Below are positions 25,565-28,899 of a DNA stretch of 64,000 nt, in pieces. The position numbers and the translations under genes are program-made. The stretch's first letter is position 1; every line of letters begins with the position of its first letter. Source of the stretch: Terriglobia bacterium (lineage in GTDB: Bacteria > Acidobacteriota > Terriglobia > Terriglobales > SCQP01); assembly GCA_021323595.1 (NCBI GenBank), contig JAJPKR010000042.1:1-64000 (forward strand), given 5' to 3'. The notes under the pieces were generated by a model that saw only the letters and a program-made list of their open reading frames with translations, searched no databases and was not told where the DNA came from.

Positions 25565-25751
25565 ACGATCGGGCGCATGGCCACGAAACCTCGTTTTGCT
25601 GCGTTGGCACCGCGGCGCGGTGGCGAGATGTTCGCCGGCGAAATCGCAAGAATACGTATCGCGACACACCCCCACTTATAGCGCGGGTGGACTACAATGC
25701 AGCGTGACCGGGTCCGGGTTCCAGGCGGGAAGGCGAAAGAGGAGCGGGAAT

Positions 25752-26321
25752 ATGCGATTGAAATCGATGGGGGGCATCACGCTTGCGGCAGTTTTGTTGG
25801 TGGGATTAGCCGCGGCGCAGCAGCCCGTGCAAATCGCGCGCACGCATCTCAAGGTGGGGCAGATGGCGCCGGATTTCACGTTGCCGAGCGACCATTTCCA
25901 GCCGGTGCGACTGAGCGATTTTCGCGGGAAGAAAACGGTGATCCTGGCGTTCTACATTCTGGCGTTCACTCCGGGTTGAACGCAGGAACTCAAGGCCTAT
26001 CAGGCTGATTTGGCCAAAATCGAAGCAAGCGATTCAGTGGTTTTGGGGGTGAGCATGGATAGCCCGGCGGCAAACGGGGTATTCGCCAAGCAGATCGGCG
26101 TCACCTTCCCGCTGCTCAGCGACATGCGCGGCATCGTCGAGGAAAAATACGGCATTCTGCAGCCCGTTCGCGAGGTGGCCGGCTACCCCATGCAGTTCGC
26201 GCAACGAACCACGTTCGTTATCGACAAACAGGGCATCATTCGCAAGATTCAGTTCGGAACGGAGGCGATCAATCCCTCGACGGCGGTGTCGATGTGTCTT
26301 AATTTACATCGCGGCAAATAG
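25752..26321 (+). CDS. Secreted selenocysteine-containing peroxiredoxin (AhpC/TSA family), UGA at the peroxidatic position
   Basis: 189 residues if the in-frame TGA at 25977-25979 is read as selenocysteine. A signal peptide (SMGGITLAAVLLVGLAAAQ) is followed by 'VGQMAPDFTLPSDHFQPVRLSDFRGKKTVILAFYILAFTPG', then UGA as residue 76, then 'TQELKAYQADLAKI', 'VVLGVSMDSPAANGVFAKQIGVTFPLLSD' and 'RTTFVIDKQGIIRKIQFG'. In homologues the residue after FTPG is the peroxidatic Cys (FTPGCTQEL), so the stop falls exactly on the catalytic position. The only Cys left is near the C-terminus. A hairpin suited to a bacterial SECIS element follows. GAGGAG precedes the ATG. The alternative is a nonsense pseudogene. 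Confidence 0.85.
25994..26015 (+). promoter_or_regulatory. Candidate bacterial SECIS hairpin
   Basis: Beginning 15 bases after the UGA, GGCC (25994-25997) pairs with GGCC (26012-26015), and ATCA (25999-26002) pairs with TGAT (26006-26009) around a GGC loop, leaving unpaired U residues at the internal junction. Bacterial SECIS elements are short stem-loops just 3' of the UGA with a guanine in the apical loop and a bulged U, which this resembles. The fold was made by eye. Confidence 0.5.
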
Positions 26322-26378
26322 GCGACTGGCGCCGCGCCGAAGGTCTGATAGACTTATGAGTTTTCTTTAGGTCACGCC

Positions 26379-28265
26379 ATGAGAGATTTTTCCGTTCGCG
26401 CTAGCGCTACAGCCGTTCTCTGTCTCGCCGCCCTCGCCACCTTGGCGGCCCAGGCACCTGTCACGATTCAACTTACGGTGGACGCGCGGCAGGCGCCGAT
26501 GAAGATCCTGCACTCGGAAATGGTCATTCCGGTCAGGCCCGGACCGCTGACTATCTATTACCCGAAATGGATACCGGGCGAACACGAGCCCGACGGGCCG
26601 ATCGCGAATGTGGGCGGATTGAAATTCACCGCCAACGGCCGAACGATTCCATGGCGGCGCGACCTGTTGGATGTCTTCACGTTTCATTTGGACGTGCCGC
26701 CGGGAGTCGATCGATTGACGGCGGCCCTGGACTACATCGAGCCGTCGTTCGGCATTTATACGGCAGGGGCGTCGGCGACGGACAAACTCCTGGTTGTGAG
26801 CTGGAATCAGAACTTGCTGTATTTGGCCGGGGTTCCCGCGCAACAACAAACTTTCGAGGCCAAGCTGCTGCTGCCCGAGGGCTGGAAGTTCGCTACCGCA
26901 TTGCCGGTGGCCAGCCGAAGCGGCGATGAAATCACGTTCCAACCGGTCTCGCTGAACCGGCTGGTGGATTCCCCGGTACAAGCGGGCGAATACTTGGACG
27001 TTTACAACATCACTCCGCCCAACGAACCGATTCACCACGAATTGGACATTGCCGCGGATTCGGCGGATGCGGCGCGGCTGGCGCCGGAATGGCAGGAGAA
27101 GATGACGAATCTGGTCGCGGAAGCCGGGGCGTTATTTGGCGCGCGGCATTACCGCGATTACCACTTCCTGTTTACGCTCAGCGATCATGTCGCCCATTTC
27201 GGACTCGAGCACCACGAGAGCGACGACAGCCGCCTGGGCGAGCGAGTGCTGGAAATGCCGGATCCGGGACGCGCCATGGGCGGGCTCTTACCGCATGAAT
27301 TTGTCCATTCCTGGAACGGCAAGTTTCGCCGCCCGGCGGATCTCACGCCACCCTACTACGAAGAGCCGATGAAAACGGATCTCTTGTGGGTTTACGAAGG
27401 CCTGACCGATTATCTCGGCAATGTCCTCGCAACGCGGAGCGGACTCTGGACCCAGGATCAATACCACCAATATTTGGCGAACATCGCGGCGACGCTGGGT
27501 CCCGGCAGACCGGGGCGGACGTGGCGTCCCCTGCTGGATACGGCGGTGGCGGTGCCCGGAATTGGGTTCACGCCGGGCTGGACGAATTGGCTGCGGAGCA
27601 CGGACTACTATCCCGAGGGAGATCTGATCTGGCTTGAGGTCGATACCACGATCCACCGTGTGACCCACGGTCAGAAGACCATCGCCGATTTCCTGCGATC
27701 CTTCTACGGCGGGCCGAACCTGGGACCCCAACTTAAGACCTACACGTTCGATCAGCTCGTGGCAGCGCTGAACGCAGTCGCACCATATGACTGGGCTGAT
27801 TTCTTCCACGAGCGGCTGGATTCGACCTCGCCGGAGGCACCGCTAGGAGGCGTGGAGGCGAGTGGATGGCGGGTGGTTTACAACAGCGAGCGTCCGATCC
27901 CGGCGAACGGGAGCAATCGGGCGGCGGCCGTGGACGCAACGTATTCCATCGGACTCCAGGTCGCCCGCGACGGACGGGTCATCGACTCCATAGTGGGAAG
28001 CCCGGCCTACAAGGCCGGCATCAGCTCGGGGATGCGCGTCGTCGGCGTGGAGGGCCGGCCGTTCAGCCCTGAATTGCTGGACGATGCAATCCGCAACAGC
28101 CCCACGGCCTCCGGCCCGATCGAATTGCTCGTCGAAAACGACGATTATTACCGCCATGCCGAGATTGACTACCACGGCGGCGCCCGTTACCCGCATCTCG
28201 AGCGCGAAGCGGGACAACCGGACTACTTGGACGACGTGGTCCTGAAGCCGATCAGCCACCGCTGA
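26379..28265 (+). CDS. M61 family peptidase (glycyl aminopeptidase-like) with C-terminal PDZ domain
   Basis: 628 residues with a signal peptide (SATAVLCLAALATLAAQ). The N-terminal beta domain has 'YYPKWIPGEHEPDGPIANVGGLKF', and the thermolysin-like catalytic domain has HEFVHSWNGKFRRP (HExxH at 306-310) with the third ligand Glu in 'WVYEGLTDYLGNVLA'. Residues about 525-600 form a PDZ domain ('VGSPAYKAGISSGMRVVGVEGRPF'). M61 enzymes remove N-terminal Gly or Ala residues. The layout and length are normal. It starts 57 bases after the peroxiredoxin and could share its transcript. Confidence 0.92.
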   Translation: MRDFSVRASATAVLCLAALATLAAQAPVTIQLTVDARQAPMKILHSEMVIPVRPGPLTIYYPKWIPGEHEPDGPIANVGGLKFTANGRTIPWRRDLLDVFTFHLDVPPGVDRLTAALDYIEPSFGIYTAGASATDKLLVVSWNQNLLYLAGVPAQQQTFEAKLLLPEGWKFATALPVASRSGDEITFQPVSLNRLVDSPVQAGEYLDVYNITPPNEPIHHELDIAADSADAARLAPEWQEKMTNLVAEAGALFGARHYRDYHFLFTLSDHVAHFGLEHHESDDSRLGERVLEMPDPGRAMGGLLPHEFVHSWNGKFRRPADLTPPYYEEPMKTDLLWVYEGLTDYLGNVLATRSGLWTQDQYHQYLANIAATLGPGRPGRTWRPLLDTAVAVPGIGFTPGWTNWLRSTDYYPEGDLIWLEVDTTIHRVTHGQKTIADFLRSFYGGPNLGPQLKTYTFDQLVAALNAVAPYDWADFFHERLDSTSPEAPLGGVEASGWRVVYNSERPIPANGSNRAAAVDATYSIGLQVARDGRVIDSIVGSPAYKAGISSGMRVVGVEGRPFSPELLDDAIRNSPTASGPIELLVENDDYYRHAEIDYHGGARYPHLEREAGQPDYLDDVVLKPISHR

Positions 28266-28271
28266 CCAGCC

Positions 28272-28899
28272 TCAGCTCGCCTGCCGCCCCCTGAAGGCGC
28301 GGCCCGATGCGGCGTGCCCGCGCTCGTGACACGACGCCTTGCCGATATCGGCAAAAAAACTTCGCGTTCGCGTTGCCGCGCCTCGCGCTCGGGGATGCGC
28401 AAGATTGCGGCGGGATAAACCGTCGCGATCACGGAAGTGCTCCTGGTGGAGGGCTGAGCCTCGCCACGCAACTGGGTCAGGCGAAATTCCCGGCCGAGCA
28501 GAGCCTGGGCCGCAGTGGCGTCCAAAGCGACAATCATGCGCGGCGCGACGACGGCGACTTCGCCCTCCAGCCACTGATGACACGCAGCGATCTCCCGCGC
28601 ATTGGGCTTGTTATGAATCCGGCGCCGGCTCGCGGTTCCCACTTGAAGTGCTTGACCGCGTTGGTGATATACACATCCGCGCACGGCACTTGCGCCGCTG
28701 CCAAAGCCTGGTCCAACAAGAGCCCGGCTGGGCCGACAAAGGGGCGACCGTCGCGGTCCTCACGATCTTCCGGGATTTCTCCGACCAGCATGAGGACCGC
28801 GTGCGGCGGCCCCCCGCTGAAGATAGTCTAGGTGGCGCGCTCCCATCGCGGGCAGGCATGACATTCGGCGGCGGCTCGCCGCAATTGATCCAGTTTCAC
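28272..28899 (-). pseudogene. udgX: UdgX-type uracil-DNA glycosylase, broken by a stop and two frameshifts
   Basis: Pieced together, the reading is: GTG 28899, 'VKLDQLRRAAAECHACPRWERAT', a TAG at 28830-28828 where homologues have Gln, then 'TIFSGGPPHAVLMLVGEIPEDREDRDGRPFVGPAG' and 'VYITNAVKHFKWEPR'. A one-base loss near 28631-28634 shifts to 'SRRRIHNKPNAREIAACHQWL' (the UdgX KRRIH cross-linking loop) and 'LDATAAQALLG', and a slip in a 7-T run near 28355 shifts to 'FFADIGK'. The family identity is certain, as the motif order and Cys cluster of the Fe-S site are recognisable. Three independent lesions argue for real decay, not one base-call error. Confidence 0.87.

Follow-up and report, generated by a model that had tools for sequence, protein, structure and literature searches.

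A putative exported selenocysteine peroxiredoxin with a C-terminal cysteine in Acidobacteriota

Background

Selenocysteine (Sec) peroxiredoxins (Prx, PF00578, TxxU; E. acidaminophilum type) are listed in the available text of PMC13188914, which gives the peroxiredoxin motif as PxxxTxxC/U and includes the Sec peroxiredoxin of E. acidaminophilum in its reference list, so this kind of protein is already known. The same text covers two further Sec-bearing proteins, Prx-SUH (NF045827) and a VPGUxxT thioredoxin-like protein (NF041383). Residues P40, T44, C47 and R120 are used by E. coli AhpC, according to the available part of PMC5124861. For the Acidobacteria, 3 families and 4 selenoproteins are reported in the accessible portion of PMC1794560; their names are not given there, and a member of the clade described here may therefore be among them.

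We examined an acidobacterial gene that resembles the E. acidaminophilum type of Sec peroxiredoxin in its AhpC/TSA fold, in a peroxidatic Sec after Thr-x-x, and in an in-frame SECIS-like hairpin after the UGA. Unlike the known Sec peroxiredoxins, its clade has a signal-like N-terminus and a C-terminal Cys, mostly lacks the proline seven residues before Sec (Sec-7), and has yielded no Cys members. Two Cys-based groups are also close. AhpE of Mycobacterium tuberculosis (Rv2238c) is similar in fold and sequence (TMt 0.77-0.89, 38-42% identity, 8.8e-23), but it has Cys where this clade has Sec and its matched part stops before the C-terminal Cys of the clade. The PrxQ/BCP proteins (Sulfolobus Bcp4, 3hjp; PrxQ, 4g2e/2ywn) provide the best sequence match and the first two Foldseek matches, whereas the protein reaches only 78.6 bits against a cut-off of 140 for NF006960 and the clade has no Cys near Sec+5.

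The protein scores 61.2 bits against NCBIfam PrxU (NF040737, cut-off 270) and 44.4 bits against the thiol peroxidase Prx-SUH model (cut-off 298), NF041383 is absent from its matches at E <= 0.001, and for four clade members tested none of the NCBIfam models reaches its cut-off. Because routine gene callers stop at UGA and none of these models is passed, annotations of many genomes probably lack the enzyme or carry it in pieces. Sec peroxiredoxins as such are known; this clade is a variant without a description in the literature searched, including the available portions of PMC1794560, PMC13188914, PMC12013277, PMC5029168, PMC5302317 and PMC5124861.

The gene and its surroundings

The window, meaning the whole 64,000-nucleotide stretch of DNA that was analysed (G000:C62:1-64000), belongs to a genome of 3.55 Mb in 65 contigs that is 97.58% complete. 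The following features were assigned to the locus.

25739 to 25744, + strand: GAGGAG, a likely ribosome-binding site 7 nt before the ATG (sequence)
25752 to 26321, + strand: predicted selenoprotein gene, 189 residues, Sec at residue 76, stop codon TAG (frame reading, Pfam, homologues)
25752 to 25820, + strand: hydrophobic, signal-peptide-like N-terminal segment MRLKSMGGITLAAVLLVGLAAAQ (hydropathy count)
25977 to 25979, + strand: UGA, predicted Sec codon at the position of the peroxidatic residue, FTPGU (frame and homologues)
25994 to 26015, + strand: putative SECIS hairpin GGCC U AUCA - GGC - UGAU UU GGCC (fold, covariation, published constraints)
26003 to 26005, + strand: apical loop GGC of that hairpin (fold)
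26205 to 26207, + strand: Arg152 codon, candidate catalytic Arg (invariant in alignment A3, 32 rows)
26295 to 26297, + strand: Cys182 codon, the sole Cys after Sec and proposed resolving Cys (in 65/65 clade loci)

The frame starts at the ATG at 25752, meets TGA at codon 76, and ends with TAG at 26319-26321, with no other stop; its translation (+ strand) runs from MRLKSMGG through FTPG-UGA-TQEL to MCLNLHRGK-stop. The initial annotation had described just such a frame continuing past the TGA, and this description holds, except that the 114 codons counted after the TGA are 113 sense codons and the stop. The TGA lies inside both Pfam matches, AhpC-TSA (4.6e-35, residues 35-165) and Redoxin (3.8e-21, residues 34-172).

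Genomic context provides no functional hint. Three other genes of the window, encoding an M61 peptidase, a DinB-like protein and an acetamidase/formamidase, gave 0 matches beside the family loci (E <= 1e-5, mostly 1.5 kb on each side), and no conserved operon was thus found. A gene of the uracil-DNA glycosylase superfamily at 28223-28791 on the reverse strand is divided between two reading frames, one ORF matching profile positions 11-67 and the other 60-132, and is therefore probably frameshifted; broken genes in this part of the window had been noted before.

A clade with selenocysteine in all loci read

Searches were made in two genome samples. In a sample of 120 related genomes, the source genome included, the best place was taken for each genome; the gene is present in 33 of these, with E values from 5e-121 to 7e-31 and, in all 33, exactly one stop, always a TGA, within the matched frame. 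The first stop-free match, among the matches listed, stands at 4.9e-29. In a sample of 396 Acidobacteriota genomes, 64 matches outrank the first stop-free one (1.0e-41), and each has one TGA. Three of these (L152, L154, L155) fall by tree into another Sec subfamily, and the remaining 61, which come from 60 genomes under 17 family labels, were assigned to the clade, 36 of them read individually (L112-L141, L153, L157-L161) and 25 by rank only. One match, in genome G322, was listed with a TAA besides the TGA; the frame as read in L161 has no TAA. More TGA-bearing places rank under the first Cys match of the phylum sample, outside the clade count. A contig scan with this single protein returned 16 distant relatives and three close ones, the latter all carrying acidobacterial titles; among viral contigs, 95 stretches matched a pattern and none encodes a relative.

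The clade set comprises 65 distinct loci that were read (L021-L052, L109-L111, L118-L141, L153, L157-L161), leaving out L053, whose protein is identical to that of L022, and L112-L117, which are places of earlier loci. Over the best segment, identity with this protein ranges from 38.6% (L153) to 67% (L051). U occupies the same position in all 65, which form a single branch with support 99/96 (65 Sec, 0 Cys) in a tree of 130 rows, from which the short matches L067 and L068 were excluded and in which the long branches L054, L056, L057, L065, L066 and L069 are unsure in placement. Over the whole tree the Sec label requires 6 changes. The earlier placement of the TGA after FTPG at the peroxidatic position therefore stands, and the suggestion that homologues have Cys there has to be revised, as the closest ones have U and Cys forms occur only in more distant paralogues. 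The proposed check of residue 76 in close homologues accordingly returned U throughout the clade.

Protein features and proposed function

By hydropathy count with the chosen starts, a hydrophobic N-terminal segment is found in 61/65 clade loci, the four without it being L033, L045, L109 and L138. The same count gives 0/11 and 1/10 in two other Sec subfamilies and 19/19 in a Cys PrxQ group, and signal-bearing Cys PrxQ proteins occur elsewhere in the 130-row tree. On this hydropathy basis the protein is likely to be exported.

Ile69 stands in place of the proline of PxxxTxxC/U, so the active site departs slightly from the usual peroxiredoxin pattern. The Sec-7 proline is missing in 59/65 clade loci and kept in six (L035, L050, L153, L157, L158, L159); by pattern match it is present in all 21 rows of two other Sec groups and in 18 of 19 Cys PrxQ rows. 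The AhpC/TSA fold named initially stands, with this proline as a correction to the active site. At the other motif positions, Sec-3 is Thr in 64 loci, including Thr73 here, and Ser in one; Gly at Sec-1 and the Ala-Phe pair at Sec-5/-4 do not vary. Arg152, invariant in the 32 rows of alignment A3, would be the counterpart of R120 in E. coli AhpC. The clade also lets Sec chemistry be compared, in a natural setting, between active sites that have the peroxiredoxin proline and those that lack it.

An AlphaFold2 model built on alignment A3 (pLDDT 88.9, pTM 0.82) places Cys182 within the last helix, residues 176-187. Foldseek ranks BCP/PrxQ and AhpE peroxiredoxins first (top two 9a4d_B and 3hjp_A), the nearest solved sequences are 2ywn/4g2e at 1.2e-24 followed by the AhpE entries, and AhpE and PrxQ/BCP entries are intermixed in the top ranks by sequence and by fold. 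A single Cys lies downstream of Sec, 97-106 residues on, in every clade locus; in the corresponding region, 90-112 residues past the site, all 40 paralogues lack a Cys. A parallel to Cys182 would be found in some Prx5-type enzymes, whose resolving Cys follows the peroxidatic one at a distance of about 100 residues.

We infer that the best reading is an AhpE/PrxQ-like exported selenoperoxiredoxin in which the C-terminal Cys resolves the selenenic acid. The gene quite likely encodes an exported Sec peroxiredoxin; for its individual parts, the relationships and conserved residues suggest that the protein is probably a peroxidase and that Cys182 may well be the resolving residue. The N-terminal segment would carry the protein across the inner membrane, where Sec76, held by Thr73 and Arg152, would attack peroxide and become a selenenic acid. 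Then Cys182, which lies in the C-terminal helix, would resolve this acid as a selenenylsulfide, and an extracytoplasmic thioredoxin-like reductase would regenerate the enzyme.

Two other functions have to be weighed against this mechanism. The first is a one-Sec peroxiredoxin like 1-Cys AhpE, in which an outside thiol resolves the selenenic acid and Cys182 has no resolving role; AhpE, titled 1-Cys peroxiredoxin in PDB entries 1xvw and 1xxu, is indeed among the sequence and fold neighbours, but the presence of Cys182 as the sole Cys after Sec in 65/65 loci makes this somewhat unlikely. The second takes the protein as a real selenoprotein that is no peroxidase and acts instead as a thiol/selenol oxidoreductase or on some other extracytoplasmic substrate. 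The loss of the Sec-7 proline in most of the clade, a partner Cys that is distant in sequence, and a context without hint (the three neighbours tested are not beside the relatives) would suit such a role; we consider it unlikely, since Thr or Ser is kept at Sec-3 in all 65 loci, Arg152 is invariant in alignment A3, and the closest proteins by both sequence and fold are AhpE and PrxQ/BCP peroxiredoxins.

Sec-decoding machinery

The genome encodes the Sec-decoding proteins: SelA (contig C26, 431 bits), SelB (contig C14, 346 bits) and SelD (contig C5, 351.5 bits, with a single in-frame TGA) are all above cut-off. A tRNA-Sec on contig C64 scores 69.7 bits with the Rfam model and is also called by ARAGORN as tRNA-SeC with anticodon tca. 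Of these two calls, that of ARAGORN carries more weight, as the Rfam model is lax, being passed by Caulobacter, Thermus and Thermotoga controls without SelB above cut-off; a second above-cut-off Rfam match in this genome is a tRNA-Ser. The search for host sel genes that had been recommended at the outset thus recovered every component. The SelD gene (L018, G000:C5:39148-40068) has its in-frame TGA close to the start (KAAGU), so SelD is probably a selenoprotein too.

Scored at E <= 1e-70, SelB is present in 46/120 related genomes, namely 32 of the 33 gene carriers and 14 of the 87 non-carriers. The sole carrier without SelB above cut-off, G117, has a tRNA-Sec and SelB-like matches under the cut-off, including a fragment of 78 positions that shares a contig with the tRNA-Sec; its SelB may have been cut by the assembly. 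As 32 of the 46 SelB-bearing relatives carry the gene, it is a candidate reason to keep the Sec machinery. Tentatively, a widespread acidobacterial peroxiredoxin clade might be Sec-only and exported, with a Sec/C-terminal-Cys pair and without the usual proline, and many Acidobacteriota might keep Sec machinery to a good extent for this extracytoplasmic selenoenzyme.

SECIS-like hairpin

The hairpin at 25994-26015 has a 3-nt loop, GGC, with G first, and a stem of 4+4 bp interrupted by an internal loop; 23 nt separate the UGA from the apical loop. The bSECIS rules in the available text of PMC13188914 are a loop of 3-9 nt, a stem of 4-16 bp, a distance of 16-37 nt from the UGA, and a G within the first two loop positions, and the hairpin agrees with these, the energy limit of that model being left aside. 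Rfam models run over 25700-26330 gave no SECIS family, the lone match at E <= 1 being an unrelated sRNA under its gathering score. The check for a SECIS after the UGA that had been suggested initially gave a bSECIS-type hairpin with compensatory changes, and no Rfam match.

Conservation of the hairpin was evaluated in alignment A4, which holds 32 of the 65 clade rows (30 distinct) chosen by eye for showing the short hairpin. In these, 88.9% of cells are paired, and four pairs and 19 cells are changed on both sides. The covariation score of A4 was reached by 0/500 shuffles and by no slid version, a result that both the row selection and the relatedness of the rows favour, as related rows can beat shuffles without structure. 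Among the nine nearest rows, 84.7% of hairpin cells are paired and four rows pair the outer stem in another register. Compared with L021, the shifted pairing in L022 and L025-L027 is accompanied by codon and residue changes; in these close relatives the RNA structure may perhaps steer the protein sequence. A longer stem replaces the short hairpin in the 26 rows bearing family label f2 (alignment A2), with 90.9% of cells paired, two pairs and four cells changed on both sides, and a 13-nt loop that exceeds the printed 3-9 nt. Seven loci (L119, L120, L125, L140, L153, L158, L159) are in neither hairpin alignment.

Folding stability depends on the stretch considered. In this gene, the stretch of 17 codons behind the UGA shows no excess of stability over synonymous shuffles (z 0.33), and the mean over nine rows, -0.51, is similar to that of control stretches (-0.73 to 0.45); the mean of the 26 f2 rows is -1.74. 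For an 8-codon stretch around the hairpin, picked once the fold was seen and compared with shuffles alone, 0/100 shuffles of this gene are as stable and the nine-row mean is -2.04, with -0.23 in the f2 rows. Plain shuffles gave a mean z of -0.47 over 36 rows.

Reading of the UGA codon

The presence of the Sec machinery, together with a UGA, a bSECIS-like hairpin and a frame beyond that are conserved together, indicates that the UGA is read as Sec, and on these sequence grounds the codon at 25977-25979 almost certainly encodes it. The recurrence of the Sec version of the gene in many relatives marks it as genuine rather than broken. After the UGA, dN is below dS in 10/10 pairs, two of which include this gene (dN 0.30, dS 2.16 versus L051; dN 0.32, dS 2.02 versus L052, the dS near 2 being close to saturation in both); as judged from these ten pairs, the codons beyond the UGA are under purifying selection.

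A general reassignment of the stop codon, with UGA read as another amino acid such as Trp, would leave the frame equally open, as any sense reading does. It was rejected as very improbable: in L025, L026 and L027, which share the family label, the next stop past the conserved end is itself a TGA, the UCA-anticodon tRNA that was found is tRNA-Sec, paralogues have Cys at the UGA position, and a SECIS-like hairpin follows the codon. A pseudogene or sequencing error, that is, a nonsense change in an ordinary Cys peroxiredoxin, might be suggested by the broken uracil-DNA glycosylase gene nearby at 28223-28791, but this too was rejected, as scarcely credible, because the same UGA is found in 65/65 clade loci, selection acts past it, sel genes are in the genome, and no second inactivating change was seen in this copy. 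The initial annotation had proposed a probable selenoprotein and held a random nonsense change at exactly this codon to be unlikely; the sel genes, the selection and the hairpin support the former, and the single TGA in 33/33 genomes, at one position across the clade, agrees with the latter.

Other Sec-bearing groups

Two further Sec groups were observed in the tree. A TPVU-type subfamily of 11 rows forms one branch (L092-L094, L096, L099, L102, L108, L152, L154-L156), without a signal-like segment and without a Cys at 90-112 after Sec; its member L092 is under the cut-off of every NCBIfam model listed. The other group, PrxQ/BCP-like with TPGU or TSGU, has 10 rows (L095, L097, L098, L100, L101, L103-L107); the Cys row L089 is nested among its TPGU members, and L103 passes NF006960 with 161.5 bits against the cut-off of 140. 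Distant AhpC/TSA-type frames, L066 and L069, have an in-frame TGA in the active-site region, with RGRWUPYC in a Gemmatimonadetes MAG and GSITUPPC in a SAR202 Chloroflexi MAG. Two genomes, G096 and G109, each encode all three Sec types.
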